Shown: positions 5,295-36,359 of the stretch, one piece after another
Numbering within the stretch: the first letter of the stretch is position 1
How the letters are laid out: every line of letters begins with the position of its first letter
Assembly: GCA_035516965.1 (NCBI GenBank)
Contig: DATIZR010000075.1
Coordinates: forward strand, 1-36,532
DNA: 36,532 nucleotides
Source of the DNA: Nitrospirota bacterium
GTDB taxonomy: Bacteria; Nitrospirota; UBA9217
Direction: 5' to 3'
Made by a program: the position numbers and the translations under genes
The notes under the pieces: model-generated
The model's input: only the letters and a program-made list of their open reading frames with translations
Databases searched by the model: none
What the model was told of the DNA's origin: nothing

Positions 5295-5691
5295 GCGGAC
5301 TTGTCCGGCTGAACAGGACATGGGCGGTTCCTGAGGCGTGCCTGCCACAGGGACCGCGAATTCTTTGCTGCGCCTTTCTCCTCCCTCCGGAATCCCGGCC
5401 ACAGTACCGCCGCATCTCCCCCTCGGCATGAACCGCCTCCAGGCAACCGTCTTTGTCAGCGCGAAATACCGTACGCGCCACTCCCGTGGCATTTCCGTCT
5501 CGAGTGCTCCCGGACGACGGCCGGAGTGCGGATAACAGAAGCCGGAAAATTGCACTTGAAAGGCGACATGAATCTGATACAATGAAACCCCAGGGTTCTA
5601 GAAACCCGGGACCGGAGCGCCGGACCAAGGCGGGCACGAGCCCGCCGGAGTAGAGGCGCCGACCGCACGCCGGGATGGGGAGGAACGGATC
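5295..5691. other. Intergenic region, no gene recognised
   Basis: Open frames on both strands here are Arg/Pro/Ser-rich and look like shadows of GC-rich DNA. The only structure I noticed is an imperfect palindrome around GGGTTCTAGAAACCC at about 5592-5606. A good ribosome binding site for the next gene (GGGGAGG) lies at the right end. Confidence 0.4.
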
Positions 5692-18298: not shown

Positions 18299-19243
18299 TT
18301 GCAAACCTTGAAAGCAATCGATGAACGCATGCAACACCATCTGAAAACTCGAGCTGCAATTGTATCTATCACTTCGAACTCGGTTCTGATCATTCTTAAA
18401 CTGGCTGCTGGATTGTTCATGCACTCAGTCAGCGTGATCTCCGAAGCCGTCCATTCCGCAATTGATCTTGTTGCCGCCATTGTTGCTTTTATGTCTGTTC
18501 GCCATTCGGGGAAACCGGCAGACAAAGATCATCATTACGGCCACGGGAAAATAGAGAACATTTCGGCCACAATAGAAGCGCTGCTCATCTTCGGAGCTGC
18601 TGTTTATATCATCTATCAGGCTGTACAAAAGCTGGAACACGGCAATATAGAAGTTGAAAGCCTCGGCCTTGGTACATTGGTCATGGCCGCGTCCGCTGCC
18701 GTCAACTTCATCGTCTCACGCTATCTTTTCAAAGTTGCCCACCTGACTGACTCTGCTGCTCTCCGCGGAGATGCGCTCCACCTGAGAACCGATGTCTGGA
18801 CTTCCCTCGGCGTTTTAGGCGGGCTTGCAGCAATTAAACTGACCGGTCTCGAGGTTCTGGACCCTGTTGTTGCTATCGTTGTTGCTCTTCTAATCATTAA
18901 AGCGGCCTGGGAACTGACCAAGGAGTCATTCTCGGACATACTCGATACGCGAATTCCTGCCAAGGATGAAGAACTAATCCACCGGGTTCTGGCCGAGCAT
19001 TCTCATGCTATTACCGACTACCATAAACTACGTACCCGCAAATCAGGCCATGTCCGCTATATCGATCTTCATATCGTGGTTCCCGGGCGAAGCATGGTCA
19101 AAGATGCTCATTCGTTAAGCGATCTCATCACTTCCCGGATCAAAGAGCGTCTGGCAAACAGCCACGTGTTAGTCCATATTGAGCCTTGCGACGGAATGTG
19201 TAACGGGTGTCATCTGGACTGTAAATCCATGGCTCATTCCTGA
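18299..19243 (+). CDS. Cation diffusion facilitator metal exporter with Cys-rich tail
   Basis: The product is a CDF-family antiporter of about 304-314 residues that exports divalent metal in exchange for protons. It has six membrane segments and then a cytosolic ferredoxin-like domain. Metal-site residues follow an HxxxD/HxxxD pattern: AVHSAIDL in TM2 and ALHLRTDV in TM5, typical of zinc-type rather than manganese-type CDFs; the GHGKIEN motif follows TM2. The last 20 residues add four cysteines (CDGMCNGCHLDC), an uncommon possible metal-binding tail. The start is uncertain: TTG at 18299 or ATG at 18329, neither with a good Shine-Dalgarno sequence. Confidence 0.9.
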   Translation: MQTLKAIDERMQHHLKTRAAIVSITSNSVLIILKLAAGLFMHSVSVISEAVHSAIDLVAAIVAFMSVRHSGKPADKDHHYGHGKIENISATIEALLIFGAAVYIIYQAVQKLEHGNIEVESLGLGTLVMAASAAVNFIVSRYLFKVAHLTDSAALRGDALHLRTDVWTSLGVLGGLAAIKLTGLEVLDPVVAIVVALLIIKAAWELTKESFSDILDTRIPAKDEELIHRVLAEHSHAITDYHKLRTRKSGHVRYIDLHIVVPGRSMVKDAHSLSDLITSRIKERLANSHVLVHIEPCDGMCNGCHLDCKSMAHS

Positions 19244-19319
19244 TGTTCATCCAGCTCACGCCTTTTTACCTCCCGTTATAAAAAATTAATAAAAAAATGA
19301 TCGAGCATTCATAAAAAGC

Positions 19320-19348
19320 TTGACATCCTTATCATCGTCTGTTATAAG
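19320..19348 (+). promoter_or_regulatory. Sigma-70 promoter of the leader/porin/NRAMP operon
   Basis: TTGACA at 19320-19325 and TATAAG at 19343-19348 are separated by exactly 17 bases. Transcription would start near 19355, about 680 bases before the porin start codon, leaving a very long leader that holds the two elements described next. Confidence 0.75.
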
Positions 19349-19390
19349 CCGCCTAGCATTTTTTCACATCATATTTTAACAGTCAGGAGG

Positions 19391-19588
19391 TGATGTCAAT
19401 GGACGGTGGCCCAAGTCACATGTGCAGCAAATTCATATCGCTATCGAAAATAGTGCCGGAGAACCGTTCATTGCTCGCCTTCGTCATGCCTTTTTCTTCC
19501 TAACGGCTCTCACTCTTATCCATTATTTTACGATAGCGCATCCTGCCCGCGATCTCGCGGGACATTATGGAGGTGCGGATAATGGGTA
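19391..19588 (+). promoter_or_regulatory. Leader-peptide RNA switch, copy 1
   Basis: The 5' arm at 19439-19455 lies in the leader reading frame. It pairs with the 3' arm at 19521-19538 over 17 pairs (one G-U, one bulged A). The 3' arm overlaps a second segment, TATCCATTAT (19517-19526), that can instead pair over 10 positions with ATAATGGGTA (19579-19588), which contains the next start codon. A hairpin CCCGCG-ATCT-CGCGGG (19546-19561) lies between. The two pairings exclude each other, the design of a translational attenuator. Copy 2 keeps the same plan with different bases. Confidence 0.72.
19399..19503 (+). CDS. Leader peptide 1 (34 aa)
   Basis: A perfect Shine-Dalgarno sequence AGGAGGTGAT lies just upstream of the ATG at 19399. 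The peptide begins MDGGPSHMCSKFISLSK and ends MPFSS. Its first 13 residues parallel leader peptide 2 (MEAGPAHRCNKIS), and synonymous differences (CCA/CCT for Pro, CAC/CAT for His) indicate that the amino acids matter. Codons 14-19 form the 5' arm of the RNA switch, so a ribosome passing them would prevent the arm from pairing. Probably a cis-acting regulatory peptide. Confidence 0.7.
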   Translation: MDGGPSHMCSKFISLSKIVPENRSLLAFVMPFSS

Positions 19589-19788
19589 TCATTACGATTC
19601 CTTCTGTTTCTCAACACATTCCGAATCATGAACTATTGTGTCCTTATTTCACTATAGGGACGAATACCTGCCTGGCATCGATTTTCTTTCTGATAATCGA
19701 CGCGGGAAAGGCCGAAGACCGCTGTCTGTCCGAAAACTGGGACGACTGCCCAATGGTCCTTTCAAAGCTGCTCAGAAGCAAAAACTGA
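19582..19788 (+). CDS. Small unknown protein controlled by leader copy 1 (68 aa)
   Basis: The ATG at 19582 follows GGAGG and sits where the porin start sits in copy 2. The start regions correspond: GGAGGTGCGGATAATGG here and GGAGGTGGGAATAATGG at the porin. I do not recognise the product. It has a hydrophobic stretch near residues 27-42 (IGTNTCLASIFFLIID), four cysteines, and a C-terminus reading CLSENWDDCPMVLSKLL. It may be a small membrane protein, or a remnant left when the leader was duplicated. It ends 45 bases before leader peptide 2. Confidence 0.5.
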   Translation: MGIITIPSVSQHIPNHELLCPYFTIGTNTCLASIFFLIIDAGKAEDRCLSENWDDCPMVLSKLLRSKN

Positions 19789-19833
19789 TTTTACCCGATT
19801 AATTTAACTAATGGAGAATGGGAGGTGATGTTT

Positions 19834-19899
19834 ATGGAAGCTGGCCCTGCTCATAGATGCAATAAAATTTCACGATTATTAACGCCGCTACGGGAATAA
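19834..19899 (+). CDS. Leader peptide 2 (21 aa)
   Basis: GGGAGGTGATG precedes the ATG at 19834 at normal spacing. The peptide is MEAGPAHRCNKISRLLTPLR plus a final Glu. It shares M-(D/E)-x-G-P-x-H-x-C-x-K with leader peptide 1. Its last codons and stop (19886-19899) form the 5' arm of RNA switch 2, so a terminating ribosome would cover the arm. The acidic/proline N-terminus recalls MgtL, in which low Mg2+ makes ribosomes drop off early; this comparison is inference. Confidence 0.7.
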   Translation: MEAGPAHRCNKISRLLTPLRE

Positions 19900-20037
19900 T
19901 ACAAGGGGGAGTTACTGCTTGCCCTTCACCACCTCGATCCATCTTCCGTTTATTCTCTTCTTTCCATTATTCCCGATAGCGCATCCCGCTCCATTACGTG
20001 GTGCGGAACAATCCAACGTCGGAGGTGGGAATAATGG
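19886..20037 (+). promoter_or_regulatory. Leader-peptide RNA switch, copy 2, at the porin start codon
   Basis: The 5' arm at 19886-19900 pairs with ATTATTCCCGATAGCG (19966-19981) over 15 pairs with one bulged A. The same 3' segment extended, CCATTATTCCC (19964-19974), is the exact reverse complement of GGGAATAATGG (20027-20037), which contains the porin start codon. Between them lies a hairpin with stem CCGC-CCA/TGG-GCGG (about 19986-20006). If the 5' arm is free, the start codon is exposed; if a ribosome occupies the arm, the start codon is captured. Compared with copy 1, the variable stem part changes from AAAATA/TATTTT to GGGAATA/TATTCCC, a compensatory change. Confidence 0.75.
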
Positions 20038-21401
20038 TCCTCATCGCAATTATTTCACTTTGTAAAAAACTTCTGAAAAAGAGCGCTTTTATTAGCGCCA
20101 GCGTGCTCCTTGTCGGCGTCGCGAACGCGGAAACTCCGTCTGAACCCGGTTGGGCGCCGCAACTGCTCGGAATGCAAGCGACTATCATCTATCAGAACAT
20201 GCCCGCGTTCTCAAGCCCGTATGAAGGTCCCCAAAGCCTGACATTCAAAAACGGAGAAGGTCATGGGCATACCGAAACGTACGGGATCTATCTCGGATCG
20301 CAGATCTTACCCCGTTTGCAGGCTTATCTCGATGTCGAGCAGGCGCGGGGCAATGGGATCGGCCATGCAGTCGGTTTGGGTGGTATCACAAACGGCGACG
20401 TCATCCGTCAGGGTTCGACTGATCTTGGGCAGAATCCGTATATAGCACGGCTGTTCCTTCGTTATCTCATTCCTTTGTCAAGGGAGACTGCATCGGTAGA
20501 AAGGGCAATGGACCAACTGCCGGGGGAAGAGCCTCTCAGCAGGATCGAAATAAAAGGCGGGTTAATGGCCGCAACTGACGATTTTGATCAAAATCGCTAT
20601 GCCAATAATACCCGTATCCAGTTCCTCAACTGGGGATTCATCAATAACACAGCATGGGATTTCGCTGCCAACACACGAGGATACAGCTACGGACTTCTCG
20701 TTTCTTACATAAGGCCATCATGGAAGCTTGCTTATGGAATCTACAAAATGCCCACGACGGCCAACGGCAACGAGTTCGATCATATCGGAACATCGAGCGG
20801 AAATAACCTGGAACTTACTCTTAGACCTAACCAGGAGGGAACGGTTATGCGTTTCCTCGCCTATTACAACACAGGGCGCATGGGCAATTATGAAGAGGCG
20901 ATCTCGACAGGCCAGGCAACCGGGATGGAACCCGATATCGCCAAGGACAACAGGCCGGGACGGCATAAATACGGGTTCGGCTTCAACGTGGAGCAGCCTC
21001 TCGCGGATGCAGGCGAAACGGGGGCCTTTGCCAGGATCGGCTGGAACGACGGGCATACTGAGGACTTTGCTTTTACCGAGGTGGACCGGCACCTGAGCAC
21101 GGGCATGCAGGTAAGCGGCGTTCACTGGGGTCGCACTGAGGATCGTCTTGGAGTCGCTTATGTATGGCACGGCTTGTCGCCCGAGCATCGTGAGTATCTT
21201 GCGGCGGGGGGGACAGGTTTTCTGCTCGGCGACGGCAAGCTCAATTACGGTCTGGAGCAGATATTTGAAACGTATTACCGAGTTCAACTTGGACAGTATG
21301 CGCAGCTATCTCCCGACTTCCAGTACATCCAGAATCCAGGATACAATCGTGACCGGGGGCCGGTCGAAGTTTATTCGGTGCGCTTACGACTGAGCTACTA
21401 A
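20034..21401 (+). CDS. OprB-like outer-membrane porin
   Basis: The 455-residue product has a signal peptide (basic start, ISASVLLVGVANA, cleavage near residue 31) and a long alternating beta-strand sequence ending in an aromatic residue (VRLRLSY), as outer-membrane barrels do. The C-terminal third has the hallmark of carbohydrate-selective porins: FARIGWNDGHTEDFAF, GVHWGR, GLSPEHREYLAAGGTGFLLG and NPGYNRDRGPV. Here it is joined to a metal transporter, 24 bases upstream of it, so the likely substrate is a divalent cation crossing the outer membrane, similar in idea to manganese-specific porins. The start at 20034 follows GGAGG and is the codon captured by RNA switch 2. Confidence 0.85.
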   Translation: MVLIAIISLCKKLLKKSAFISASVLLVGVANAETPSEPGWAPQLLGMQATIIYQNMPAFSSPYEGPQSLTFKNGEGHGHTETYGIYLGSQILPRLQAYLDVEQARGNGIGHAVGLGGITNGDVIRQGSTDLGQNPYIARLFLRYLIPLSRETASVERAMDQLPGEEPLSRIEIKGGLMAATDDFDQNRYANNTRIQFLNWGFINNTAWDFAANTRGYSYGLLVSYIRPSWKLAYGIYKMPTTANGNEFDHIGTSSGNNLELTLRPNQEGTVMRFLAYYNTGRMGNYEEAISTGQATGMEPDIAKDNRPGRHKYGFGFNVEQPLADAGETGAFARIGWNDGHTEDFAFTEVDRHLSTGMQVSGVHWGRTEDRLGVAYVWHGLSPEHREYLAAGGTGFLLGDGKLNYGLEQIFETYYRVQLGQYAQLSPDFQYIQNPGYNRDRGPVEVYSVRLRLSY

Positions 21402-21425: not shown

Positions 21426-22697
21426 ATGAACATCTTTAACCAGTTTTACTACCAGTACCGCCGCTTCGCCAAGGCGATCAGGCTTTTTTTACTCACAGCC
21501 GGTCCCGGAATCATCGTGATGGTTGCCGACAACGACGCGGGTGGAATCACGACCTACACAGCAACCGGAGCAAAATACGGCATGCATCTTCTGTGGTTCC
21601 TGGTTCTCCTCGGACCTGTGGCGTACTACGTCCAGGAGATGACCGTTCGTCTTGGAGCGGTAACGAAACGCGGCCATGCCGAAGCGATCTTTTCCGCCTT
21701 CGGCCGGTTCTGGGGCTGGTTCTCGCTGCTGGATCTGGTCCTGACCGACTGGCTCACCATGATCACCGAGTTTATCGGTATGACCGCCGCTATGAGCATT
21801 TTTCATATTCCGCCGGTCCTGACCGTTGTCATCTGCTGGCTCATCATGGGCGCTATGATCATGAGCGGGCGCTATTGGACTTGGGAAAAAATTGCGCTTC
21901 TGTTCTGCGTCCTTAATCTCATTTATATTCCCGCCGCCTTCATGGTTCATCCGTCGGTAAAGGACATTGCGTTCAACAGCTTCGTGCCTCATTTCCCGCC
22001 GGGCGGATTCACTAATGAACTCTTCTTCCTTCTCATGGCCAACATCGGCACGACGATCGCGCCCTGGATGCTGTTCTTCCAACAAAGCTCGGTCGTGGAC
22101 AAAGGTCTTCATGAGAAGGACATCAAATTCGGGAAGATCGATACCGCAATAGGATCGCTCCTCACCGTCATTGTTGCAACCGTACTGATCATCGTTTGCG
22201 GCAAACTGCTCTACGGCGTGCCGGTGGATGACGCTGCGGTCGCCGCCAAGCAGATCATGCCTCAAAACAGCATCATTGGGACCCTCATAGCGATCGGATT
22301 GTTCGATGCCGGTCTGCTCGGTGCAATCTGTATATCTCTGGCGAGTTCGTGGGCCTTCGGGGAGGTCTTCGGCTGGGCTCATTCCCTCAATCAGAAAGTC
22401 AGAGAAGCGCCGTGGTTCTATGCGTACTATTTCTTCGACCTTCTCCTTGCCGGGACCGTCGTCTTGATCCCCGGAGCGCCACTCGTTCTGATCACGCTGT
22501 TTGTTCAGGTGATCGCAACGACCCTGCTTCCTGCCGCCTTGGTTTTCCTGATCCTTCTTCTGAACGACAAGAAGACCATGGGCGAATATGTCAATACCAC
22601 GTGGCAGAACATTGTCAATATCAGCATCGTCGCTGTTATCATTGCCCTTTCCACGATGTACGGCGTAAGCACACTATTCCCTGATATGTTCAAATAG
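21426..22697 (+). CDS. NRAMP-related divalent metal transporter with altered metal site
   Basis: The 423-residue, roughly 11-segment protein belongs to the NRAMP/SLC11 fold. In TM1 the canonical DPGN is replaced by DAGG (VADNDAGGITTYTATG). In TM6 the canonical MPH is replaced by APW (GTTIAPWMLFFQQSS). Loss of the Met ligand, which selects against Mg2+ and Ca2+, and of the Asn ligand is what I recall for NRAMP-related magnesium transporters, so Mg2+ or a broad Mg/Mn specificity is more likely than classical Mn/Fe uptake. It is in one operon with the porin, a small membrane protein and an MgtE-like sensor protein. AAGGAGG precedes the ATG. Confidence 0.9.
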   Translation: MNIFNQFYYQYRRFAKAIRLFLLTAGPGIIVMVADNDAGGITTYTATGAKYGMHLLWFLVLLGPVAYYVQEMTVRLGAVTKRGHAEAIFSAFGRFWGWFSLLDLVLTDWLTMITEFIGMTAAMSIFHIPPVLTVVICWLIMGAMIMSGRYWTWEKIALLFCVLNLIYIPAAFMVHPSVKDIAFNSFVPHFPPGGFTNELFFLLMANIGTTIAPWMLFFQQSSVVDKGLHEKDIKFGKIDTAIGSLLTVIVATVLIIVCGKLLYGVPVDDAAVAAKQIMPQNSIIGTLIAIGLFDAGLLGAICISLASSWAFGEVFGWAHSLNQKVREAPWFYAYYFFDLLLAGTVVLIPGAPLVLITLFVQVIATTLLPAALVFLILLLNDKKTMGEYVNTTWQNIVNISIVAVIIALSTMYGVSTLFPDMFK

Positions 22698-22709: not shown

Positions 22710-22886
22710 ATGATAAAGACCTTCTTCACTCACAGCTATGCCAAGATTCGCGAGATCAATCAAAAATACGAGAAGCCGAGAATTGAGATGTCCAGATGGG
22801 TAAGGGCATCCCTGATCCTGCTGCGTGTCTATCTGTTTTCGTTAATAGGTCTATCGGTTTATAAATTCATTACGCTGCTTAAATAG
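22710..22886 (+). CDS. Small single-pass membrane protein (58 aa)
   Basis: GGAGGAG lies seven bases before the ATG at 22710. The product has a charged, Lys/Arg/Glu-rich N-terminal half (KIREINQKYEKPRIEMSRWVR) and one C-terminal membrane segment (LILLRVYLFSLIGLSVYKFI). It lies 12 bases after the NRAMP-related gene and 11 bases before the MgtE-like gene, so it is in the same operon. I do not recognise a family. By position it may be an accessory or regulatory subunit of the transporter, as small membrane proteins are for several Mg and Mn transporters. Confidence 0.75.
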   Translation: MIKTFFTHSYAKIREINQKYEKPRIEMSRWVRASLILLRVYLFSLIGLSVYKFITLLK

Positions 22887-22897
22887 GGAGGTGAGCG

Positions 22898-24175
22898 ATG
22901 AACACGGCGCTGAATAAAAATCAGGAAACCGTCGATGCCGTATTTTTTCTGAGCGATCTAATCGGGACGAAAGTCCTGAACGGCGATAAGAGAATAGGTA
23001 AATTAGGAGATCTCGCAATTATTGAAAGAGAAAAACTTCCAGTTGTAACTCATTTCATCGTAAAGAGGCCGTTCGGAAGAAAATCTCTGCTTGTTCCCTG
23101 GGAGCGGGTTGTCGCGGTCTCAGCACGAAGGCTTATTATCGATCTCGAAGAGCCGGAGCAGTATGAAGGAGAGCCTGCGGAATCTCAGGTCCTGCTCGGC
23201 GATCATGTTCTGGACAAAAAAGTCCTCGATATGGACGACAATGAGATTGACATCGTCTATGACGTGAAACTCGCCCGGCGCAATAAAGTCCTTTACGTTA
23301 CCGATGTGGATTTCAGCAGGTACGCCCTGTTTAAACGGCTCGGCCTTATCCGGCTCATGGAACTGCTCTTCAGCGGGACGAATCTATTAAAGAAAGAAAC
23401 GCTTTCATGGTCCTACGTACAGCCATTGCCCGAACATCTCGGAAGTTTCAAGGGGAACGTCAAGCTGAACGTTCTGAAGGAGAAACTTACGGAAATTCAG
23501 CCGGTAGATCTTGCCGATATTCTCGAAGAACTGAGCGGGGAGCAGCGGCTTGCGATTTTTAATCAACTCGAGACCGAACACGCATCGGACACGCTTGAAG
23601 AGGTCGAGCCCCGAGTACAGCGTCAGCTTATTTCCTCGATAAAGAAAGAGCGCGCAGCCGAACTGATCAACGCCATGACCCCTGCGCAGGCTGCGGATAT
23701 CCTTGCCATTTTGCCTGGAAGCGAAGCAGATGATATCCTGAAGCTGATCGACAGGGAAAACGCGACGAAGATTCAATCGATGCTTGAAAAGCAGGACCAA
23801 AAGATAATAAACTTTTCCACATCGCAGTTCATCAAACTCCCGCCCGATACTGCGGTAGGTTATGTTGAGGACCGGTTCCCCGAAATCGCACGGGATAAAG
23901 ATGAGATCATGTACATCTATGTCGTAGACGAAAAGAACGTTTTATTGGGAGTAGTAGATCTTAAAGAAGTGCTGAAAACGAAAAACGAAGAGAAACTTGC
24001 GGACATCATGACAACAAATGTGATTCAGTTAAATCCTGAAAATACTCTTCTCGAAGCAGCCGAAATGTTTTCGCGCTATAGCTTCCGGTCACTTCCCGTG
24101 GTCGATGAAAAAAATGTCATCATCGGAGTGATTCCCTATAGAGATGTTATGAACCTGAAACACAAATTTGTTTAA
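22898..24175 (+). CDS. Soluble PRC-barrel / MgtE-N / CBS protein (MgtE sensor without its channel)
   Basis: The 425-residue protein begins with two PRC-barrel-like repeats (about 15-90 and 100-150). An MgtE N-terminal helical domain follows (about 185-300, LKEKLTEIQPVDLADILEEL, AAELINAMTPAQAADIL). It ends with a CBS pair (about 300-425, LGVVDLKEVL, IIGVIPYRDVMNL). In MgtE magnesium channels, the N and CBS domains bind Mg2+ in the cytosol and close the membrane pore. No membrane segment follows here: the protein stops after the CBS pair. Its place in the operon of an NRAMP-related transporter suggests that it gates or senses for that transporter. GGGAGG precedes the ATG. Confidence 0.9.
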   Translation: MNTALNKNQETVDAVFFLSDLIGTKVLNGDKRIGKLGDLAIIEREKLPVVTHFIVKRPFGRKSLLVPWERVVAVSARRLIIDLEEPEQYEGEPAESQVLLGDHVLDKKVLDMDDNEIDIVYDVKLARRNKVLYVTDVDFSRYALFKRLGLIRLMELLFSGTNLLKKETLSWSYVQPLPEHLGSFKGNVKLNVLKEKLTEIQPVDLADILEELSGEQRLAIFNQLETEHASDTLEEVEPRVQRQLISSIKKERAAELINAMTPAQAADILAILPGSEADDILKLIDRENATKIQSMLEKQDQKIINFSTSQFIKLPPDTAVGYVEDRFPEIARDKDEIMYIYVVDEKNVLLGVVDLKEVLKTKNEEKLADIMTTNVIQLNPENTLLEAAEMFSRYSFRSLPVVDEKNVIIGVIPYRDVMNLKHKFV

Positions 24176-24283: not shown

Positions 24284-24428
24284 AGGTTCAGTCCCGAGGG
24301 GGAGTAGCTCCATCGTACAGGGTCAACATACTGGCTTTTAAAGCCTGGCCCTGCAATTGGTTTGAACCAATGAGCGAGACCTTCGGCGTTGCGGTTATCC
24401 TGCCGCGCGCCGGAAGTCTCGCTTTTTT
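24284..24428 (+). ncRNA. yybP-ykoY manganese riboswitch with intrinsic terminator
   Basis: The aptamer shows the family landmarks: GGGGGAGTAGCTCC in the first loop arm (about 24298-24311), ACAGGGTCAACATACTGG in the second (about 24317-24334), and the GCGAGACC closing segment. The expression platform is a long terminator (24374-24428): GCGAGAC-x-TTCGGCG ... CGCCGGAA-GTCTCGC followed by TTTTTT. Mn2+ binding docks the two arms and stabilises the aptamer, which prevents terminator formation, so the exporter gene is switched on when manganese is high. Confidence 0.88.
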
Positions 24429-24449: not shown

Positions 24450-25100
24450 ATGACAGCTTTTCTTACCTCGATGCTGTTTGTGGTCCTTGCTGAAATGGGA
24501 GACAAGACCCAGCTCCTGGCAATTGCTTTTGCAACACGGTTCAAGGCGTCTACTGTACTCTGGGCGGTCTTTGTGTCTACCGCTGCCAACCATTTTATCG
24601 CTGTCGAAGTCGGGACGTGGCTCACGAATTTTATTCCGATTAGCTATATTCAGATAGCTGCGTCCGCTTCTTTCATCTTTTTCGGCCTCTGGACCATTCG
24701 TGGCGACCAGTTGGAGGATGAGGATAAACGCTTCAGCTTTAGCCCATTCTGGACTGTTGCATTTGCCTTCTTCATTGCAGAGATGGGGGATAAGACGCAG
24801 CTCGCAACAGTTGCTCTCGCTGCGAAATATCAAACAGTACTGCCGGTATGGATGGGATCGACAACCGGGATGATGATTGCAGATGCGGTCGGAATTGGAG
24901 TAGGTGTCGTGCTCGGGAAGAAGAGTCCTGAGAAAGTAATGAAATGGGGCGCAGCGGGCATTTTCATCCTTTTTGGCTTTTACGGCTTGCATGAAGCCCT
25001 TCCAGTCCGTTTTTTAACTCAATTCTTCGAAATTGGTGCAATCATTCTCGTCACTGGAGCGGTGCTACTCATCGGCCGACCATGGATCAGCCGTCGCTGA
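24450..25100 (+). CDS. GDT1/UPF0016 manganese exporter (MneA-like)
   Basis: The 216-residue membrane protein carries the two inverted-repeat signatures of the UPF0016/TMEM165 family: AEMGDKTQLLAI near residue 15 and AEMGDKTQLATV near residue 109, each in a predicted membrane helix. A charged loop (DQLEDEDKR) joins the halves. Family members exchange Mn2+ or Ca2+ for protons; bacterial MneA exports manganese. The yybP-ykoY riboswitch upstream confirms manganese as the likely substrate. AAAGGAG precedes the ATG. It is the last gene of the island and lies outside the NRAMP operon, with its own promoter. Confidence 0.94.
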   Translation: MTAFLTSMLFVVLAEMGDKTQLLAIAFATRFKASTVLWAVFVSTAANHFIAVEVGTWLTNFIPISYIQIAASASFIFFGLWTIRGDQLEDEDKRFSFSPFWTVAFAFFIAEMGDKTQLATVALAAKYQTVLPVWMGSTTGMMIADAVGIGVGVVLGKKSPEKVMKWGAAGIFILFGFYGLHEALPVRFLTQFFEIGAIILVTGAVLLIGRPWISRR

Positions 25101-34967: not shown

Positions 34968-35060
34968 TATTCCCGATAAAGCCTAACCCTTTCGTGAGAA
35001 GGGGGATGGAAAGCAACGGGTCTTCCGAACCGGAAGACGACGGGGCCGCCGAAGGAATGC
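34968..35060 (+). ncRNA. Cyclic di-GMP-I riboswitch (GEMM) before the NHL gene
   Basis: The conserved parts of the class appear in order: TAACCC-TTTCGTGAGAA-GGGGGATGGAAAGCAACGGGTC as the first hairpin arm and joining strand, then a second hairpin (TCTTCC/GGAAGA), then GACGGGGCCGCCGAAGG. Some positions differ from the best consensus (TAACCC for CAAACC, GCAACGGG for GCCACGGG). Downstream, GGGCTGATC-C-GATCAGCCC (35101-35119) is a strong hairpin close to the start codon and may be the expression platform. Confidence 0.8.
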
Positions 35061-36273: not shown

Positions 36274-36359
36274 TCCTCCGATAAGAGTAAACCCATTGCA
36301 AGGTGGGGGCACAAAGCCTTCGGGTCCTGTGGGAACAGGACGGCCGGGCTGCCGGAGCA
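36274..36359 (+). ncRNA. Cyclic di-GMP-I riboswitch (GEMM) before the OmcS-like cytochrome
   Basis: This is a near-consensus example: P1 CTCCG (36276-36280) pairs with CGGAG (36353-36357). TAAACCCATTGCAAGGTGGG forms the first hairpin with its GNRA-type loop. GCACAAAGCCTTCGGGTC is the joining region that contacts the ligand. CCTGTGGGAACAGG is the second hairpin, and ACGGCCGGGCTGCCGG closes it. It sits 22 bases before the cytochrome start codon, so translation control is likely. Confidence 0.94.

Follow-up and report, generated by a model that had tools for sequence, protein, structure and literature searches.

Metal sensing by leader peptides that are hard to translate, through intrinsic ribosome destabilisation, has been described for the Mg2+ genes of enterobacteria. 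In the mgtL leader of E. coli, ribosomes drop off at the EPDP codons when Mg2+ is low, the Rho terminator is hidden and mgtA is transcribed (PMC11282234). The mgtA and corA leaders each hold a uORF in a stem-loop beside pyrimidine-rich rut regions and can form alternative stems (PMC11552253), and in mgtQ the residues Asp2 and Glu5 are required to free the mgtB ribosome site (PMC8092293). A first-pass annotation of the stretch of DNA analysed here (the window, a 36.5-kb contig of a 3.8 Mb genome) described two leaders in front of a metal uptake operon and knew of no described element with the same plan. That claim does not stand, as the mgtL/mgtA, corL/corA and mgtQ/mgtB leaders have it (PMC11282234, PMC11552253, PMC8092293).

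The window leader, from its sequence, is most like mgtL, corL and mgtQ in plan and is not recognisably homologous to any of them. As in mgtL of E. coli and Salmonella, a uORF with acidic and proline codons at its very start (EPDP in mgtL) precedes the gene of a Mg2+ importer (a predicted one in the window), the RNA has putative alternative structures and a candidate Rho region, and translation of the uORF would oppose transporter expression as mgtL translation does. The peptide differs, however, and the mgtL transporter is a P-type ATPase; the window leader is without an Rfam match, has an SD/AUG hairpin whose 3' strand falls within the uORF and occurs in two copies in three operons, and its Mg2+ response and use of Rho are predictions. 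The corL leader of corA likewise has its uORF inside a stem-loop near pyrimidine-rich rut regions, its ON and OFF stems being alternatives, but corL has a UUG start and a single proline, and no sequence relation to the window leader was found. The mgtQ uORF before mgtB in Salmonella, an intergenic copy inside an operon, is comparable in its AGGAGG SD, Asp2 and one Pro; its acidic codons are needed, and it controls the release of the next gene's ribosome site. It is only 8 aa long, however, without the long uORF body and distal arm. The M-box uORF of Mycobacterium tuberculosis (rv1805A) is similar as a conserved uORF with an N-terminal proline and Rho-dependent termination in a Mg2+-responsive operon, but it needs the M-box aptamer, which is absent from the window, and its peptide is described as mycobacteria-specific.

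The nrmT operon

We refer to copy 1 and copy 2 in the window as W1 and W2, to the loci of relatives by labels of the form L0xx or L1xx and to genomes as Gxxx. The genes around the leaders are as follows.

Ends at 19243: CDF (efflux) gene upstream of the leader
19582-19788, + strand: 68-aa orphan ORF after copy 1, start codon at 19582
20034-21401, + strand: OprB-family porin, the operon's first intact gene (PF04966, E = 4.7e-34)
21426-22697, + strand: nrmT, NRAMP-related Mg2+/Mn2+ transporter by homology (PF01566)
22898-24175, + strand: PRC - MgtE_N - CBS protein, the usual nrmT partner (PF05239, PF03448, PF00571)
24450-25100: GDT1-family gene, downstream in the operon region

The best solved relative of the window transporter was EleNRMT, structure 7qia (E = 6e-62, against 2e-15 for MntH). 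Being closest to NRMT, carrying the NDAG and TIAPW motifs and having an MgtE_N partner gene, the protein is assigned as a putative NrmT. The leader of this Mg2+ transporter gene, as identified by homology, holds a short uORF that has an SD of its own. The context of nrmT with an MgtE_N partner gene has been described previously, and the NrmT of Acidobacterium capsulatum rescued Mn uptake fully and Mg uptake poorly (PMC4072509). The 68-aa ORF at 19582-19788 gave no match in Pfam or NCBIfam, and only its first codons are common to the porin gene and to the outer-membrane gene of L068a; it is probably a gene remnant behind a retained leader.

Several other features of the region were noted. A 58-aa ORF with a likely membrane helix lies between nrmT and the MgtE_N gene (22710-22886, +), and a similar ORF occupies the equivalent place in L102 (about 5430-5601). 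Directly 5' of the GDT1 gene, at 24294-24371 (+), there is a weak match to the yybP-ykoY Mn2+ riboswitch (22.7 bits against a gathering threshold of 45, E = 1.4e-4) that carries a GGGGAGUAGC and GUCAACAUACU core and is possibly a short variant. Two c-di-GMP-I riboswitches, 1.2 kb apart, were found at 34971-35053 and 36276-36356 (+).

Leader peptides, hairpin and pairing arms

The elements of the two leaders, all on the + strand, are listed in order of position.

19320-19348, +: operon promoter of the sigma-70 type (TTGACA and TATAAG, 17 nt apart), 50 nt upstream of the start of the uORF
19386-19392, +: SD of uORF 1, GGAGGTG, kept in nearly all homologues
19386-19407, +: 5' strand of hairpin H1, comprising the SD and start codon of uORF 1; pairs with 19463-19482
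19399-19503, +: uORF 1, leader peptide MDGGPSHMCSKFISLSKIVPENRSLLAFVMPFSS
19439-19455, +: 5' arm A of copy 1; 17 pairs with 19521-19538
19463-19482, +: 3' strand of H1 (anti-SD/anti-AUG), inside the uORF near its end
19483-19542, +: pyrimidine-rich C>G tract, candidate rut region (C 18, G 7)
19521-19538, +: 3' arm B of copy 1, with complementarity to the start codon at 19582 as well
19546-19561, +: spacer hairpin CCCGCGATCTCGCGGG, without a T run
19834-19899, +: uORF 2, leader peptide MEAGPAHRCNKISRLLTPLRE, SD at 19821-19827
19886-19900, +: 5' arm A of copy 2, including the uORF 2 stop codon; 15 pairs with 19966-19981
19966-19981, +: 3' arm B of copy 2, with complementarity to the start codon of the porin gene as well

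The two diverged copies that had been annotated, each with an SD, a short ORF, arms and complementarity to a start codon, are present in full in the sequence. Homology among copy 1, copy 2 and L068a, from a sister genome, begins at the SD and continues into the opening codons of the gene that follows, and copy 2 matches the covariance model with E = 4.7e-4. Across 14 Nitrospirota leaders the peptide begins M-[D/E]-x-[G/D]-P, with an acidic residue (Asp or Glu) at codon 2 in every leader and Pro at codon 5 in 13; L060a has Arg in place of the conserved Pro. Third codon positions vary within this conserved start. The distance from the AUG to the anti-SD segment takes five distinct values in seven leaders (62, 65, 68, 74 or 83), all of them 2 mod 3, and deviates in L058/L064 (73) and W2 (81). 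Acidic codon 2, Pro codon 5, third-position variation and lengths of 2 mod 3 are the properties that make the uORF coding-like. The peptides are 21-54 codons long with middles that vary freely; the C-terminus is similar (RSLLASIM) in several leaders, and His or Cys is frequent at positions 7-10 (SSHCS, SHMC) and absent there in L068a and L068b. Many peptides have just one acidic residue (MDGGP), a weaker signal than the EPDP of MgtL. An out-of-frame stop close to the PSS codons looked conserved by eye in some leaders but proved not to be general.

Hairpin H1, which had gone unreported in the first-pass annotation, was judged a stronger feature than those that it did report. In copy 1 the SD and start codon of uORF 1 form 20 near-perfect pairs with the strand inside the uORF, and 2 of 1000 shuffles were equally stable. 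The corresponding counts were 4 for L068a, 10 for L060b, 15 for L068b, 17 for L055 and 20 for L064; the hairpin was weaker in L073 and L058 (65 and 85 of 1000), and copy 2 has no clear version (575 of 1000 shuffles as stable). Over 13 homologues 87.5% of the cells in the helix were paired, compared with 38-50% when a strand was slid, and RNAalifold recovered the AUGGAC:GUYCAU helix independently. Covariation in H1 is modest, as expected, because one strand is the SD and start codon. The uORF stop lies 31-34 nt past the start of the anti-SD segment in five head copies, so a terminating ribosome would just clear this segment. Since 5' arm A (19439-19455) sits in the loop of H1, the hairpin and the arm pairing would be alternatives or form a pseudoknot.

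Arms of 17 and 15 pairs with one bulged A each had been annotated; we confirmed both, with the bulge on the 3' side. Among 2000 dinucleotide shuffles, 16 gave a duplex as stable as that of copy 1 and 11 as stable as that of copy 2. The z-scores of the arm pairing were -2.9, -3.1 and -2.3 for copy 1, copy 2 and L068a, and -4.5 and -5.1 for L058 and L064; in the shuffle test the pairing was not significant in L055, L060a and L068b and was weak in L073. Direct comparison of the sequences of copy 1, copy 2 and L068a showed double compensatory changes at three arm pairs (A-U/G-C at two pairs, U-A/C-G at one). The 3' arm is also complementary to the start-codon region over about 10 pairs in copy 1 and 11 in copy 2, and this pairing by itself is within chance, being equalled by 140 and 131 of 1000 shuffles. 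Of the two alternative pairings in the original proposal, the arm pairing thus beats shuffles, but the start-codon pairing, though present, does not do so alone.

The window promoter has 11 of 12 consensus bases, and 3 of 500 shuffles scored as well. Good sigma-70 promoters lie 41-67 nt before the AUG in most operon-head copies; L102 and L105 scored poorly in the promoter scan, which found none before the internal copies W2, L068b and L060b. A C-rich, G-poor tract follows all 11 operon-head leaders and W2, within the top 0.3-8% of windows at each locus (for copy 1, 3.6% of 60-nt windows are equally extreme), and the uORF arm pairs with part of it in W2, L068a, L058 and L064. The tract is absent after the internal copies L068b and L060b, and the uORF of L068b extends nearly to the next gene, so these copies may act by translational coupling. 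No intrinsic terminator was found in 19240-20060 and none is common to the leaders; the spacer hairpin does not qualify because it has no T run. A rho gene is present in the genome. Rfam release 15, searched with 19300-20060 at E up to 10, gave no match to a Mg2+-responsive leader RNA, and the M-box (RF00380) had no match in the window. The family has in common the SD/AUG hairpin, a peptide that starts M-[D/E]-x-[G/D]-P and, where a copy heads an operon, the C-rich, G-poor tract.

Leaders in Nitrospirota and other phyla

We scanned 396 Nitrospirota genomes with a 28-base pattern at 3 mismatches, which matched seven genomes, six with real leaders and one by chance. A scan of genome contigs with 18 specified bases returned the Nitrospirota leaders plus unrelated matches. 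The covariance-model search for homologous leaders that the first-pass annotation had suggested added the second L060 copy and leaders in G387, G393, G145 and, weakly, G133. Close nrmT genes, defined by at least 69% identity, occur in 12 of the 396 genomes, and the related leaders exist as anticipated: 10 of these 12 carry one in the nrmT operon (nrmT with its MgtE_N partner). No leader was found near the nrmT of G067, and G327, counted in the 12, has a masked N gap at the leader position. Three operons (the window, L068 and L060) have two elements, each before a different gene. The pattern revealed no further copies in the window genome, where its two other matches were unrelated sequence, and there were no plasmid homologues of the leader. 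An MgtC-family gene in L060 (1183-1884, +) is divergent from the adjoining leader L060a.

Outside Nitrospirota, nrmT is present in 6 of 395 genomes in the phylum of a Desulfarculus genome and in 18 of 297 in that of an Acidobacteriaceae genome. The covariance model found no RNA homologue of the leader in Desulfobacterota, and an H1-like hairpin was not significant in most leaders of Acidobacteriota and Desulfobacterota. The nrmT leaders of these two phyla do have uORFs with acidic-then-Pro starts (MEPPS, MEDDP, ENDDQPPSS), among them MEDDPGGHQ, VTDSDGPSSCCC, MIENDDQPPSS and MKENDDKPPS; in Desulfobacterota some of the uORFs were chosen by eye. MEPPS[STCRD] occurs in seven Acidobacteriota loci. 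The string ATG-GAR-CCN-CCN was found 8 times in 15.2 kb upstream of nrmT outside Nitrospirota and not once in 140 kb of background, the independent events being fewer than eight because some loci are close relatives. In all three phyla most leaders use AGT for the Ser that follows the conserved Pro, a hint of shared ancestry or of a constraint on the codon itself. An M-box Mg2+ riboswitch precedes nrmT in three relatives (L119 4105-4282, L121 3710-3889 and L140 3034-3210, all on the - strand), which ties the gene family to Mg2+; in L119 and L121 an acidic/PP uORF lies between the M-box and nrmT.

Proposed mechanism and alternatives

At the level of sequence, the leader is a conserved leader-peptide regulatory element, with a conserved uORF, a hairpin, arm pairing in two independent groups, a tract, promoters, a shared gene context and a class of peptide found in three phyla. 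It is probably a ribosome-read switch for metal supply. To that extent the first-pass reading, tandem RNA switches tied to leader peptides ahead of a metal uptake operon, is supported. On balance, and with some reserve, we favour a peptide-dependent attenuator of the nrmT operon, similar to mgtL, corL and mgtQ. Transcription would start about 40 nt before the uORF, and by codon 5 of the uORF a ribosome would have met an acidic residue and then a proline. Under a shortage of the divalent metal, which is most likely Mg2+, ribosomes would tend to drop off or pause there. After an early drop-off, the free uORF body would pair with the downstream pyrimidine-rich region and hide the Rho-loading site; in the window copies it would also hide the arm that otherwise grips the next start codon, and the operon would be expressed. 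With ample metal, ribosomes would reach the stop codon and cover the uORF body, leaving the downstream region exposed, such that Rho would halt transcription, the 3' arm would seal the start codon, or both, and the operon would be off. A ribosome terminating just past the anti-SD segment would let the SD/AUG hairpin close and so limit new rounds of uORF translation. As modelled folding agrees clearly for copy 1 only, we infer the drop-off, the sensed metal, the role of Rho and the direction of control by analogy.

The first-pass annotation had instead put forward a switch that acts on translation alone: the 3' arm would grip either the uORF arm or the next start codon, and neither Rho nor the peptide sequence would have a part. 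Copy 1, copy 2 and L068a do have both pairings, and an intrinsic terminator was not found. In folding with a modelled ribosome, 16.2 kcal/mol were needed to open the start codon of copy 1 when the whole uORF was covered, 6.0 with the ribosome at codons 5-6 and 9.6 without one. This rise from 6.0 to 16.2 with ribosome coverage agrees with the proposal that full translation turns the gene off, but copy 2 and L068a gave no comparably clear contrast. Start-codon capture, within chance when taken alone, was found in these three leaders only and is absent from the others, and is therefore not the general mechanism. Moreover, capturing the start codon after copy 1 would regulate little of value, since the gene there is apparently a remnant, and in other phyla the peptide start is found again in the absence of the RNA. 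We consider the purely translational switch unlikely; its start-codon mechanism may be an added layer in the window copies rather than the general one.

A leader-peptide plan that responds to Mn2+ or another transition metal, perhaps through His or Cys of the peptide, seems to us just as doubtful. His and Cys are frequent at positions 7-10, the downstream GDT1 gene has a weak yybP-ykoY match, Acidobacterium NrmT transports Mn2+ and a CDF efflux gene lies upstream; the M-box riboswitches before nrmT in three relatives and the MgtE_N and MgtC neighbours argue for Mg2+ instead, and L068a and L068b have neither His nor Cys in that stretch. It is less probable again that H1 is itself the sensor, folding at high Mg2+ (or low temperature) and shutting the uORF with the peptide as a mere relay: H1 is the most widely shared RNA feature among the Nitrospirota leaders, but no conserved aptamer-like core was seen beyond the helix, which has no Rfam match and is not evident in most of the leaders from Acidobacteriota and Desulfobacterota in which the peptide start is retained. 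Finally, the conserved N-terminus and the RSLLASIM-like C-terminus of several leaders would suit a small functional peptide, for instance a transporter regulator, with secondary effects in cis. Lengths and middles that vary so freely speak against this reading, as do the two diverged copies in three operons and a 3' part that follows the RNA pairing even where the frame differs (L058, L064), and we rate it the least probable of those considered.

Returning to the peptide-dependent attenuator, we suggest more tentatively, as a possibility somewhat less likely than not, that nrmT operons of at least three phyla are under the control of one ancient leader-peptide family (M-acidic-...-[G/P]P-S-S). 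Peptide-induced drop-off at early codons would serve this family to sense divalent metal in the cytoplasm, and the surrounding RNA would have been remade on several occasions, one of them giving the SD-sealing, rut-hiding leader of Nitrospirota. If true, the logic described for enterobacterial Mg2+ genes would operate in Nitrospirota, Acidobacteriota and Desulfobacterota with another transporter, peptide and RNA, making it a widespread strategy. The leaders would offer a natural set of variants for finding out which properties of a nascent peptide render ribosomes sensitive to metal, and regulation would be assigned to nrmT operons that have no M-box.
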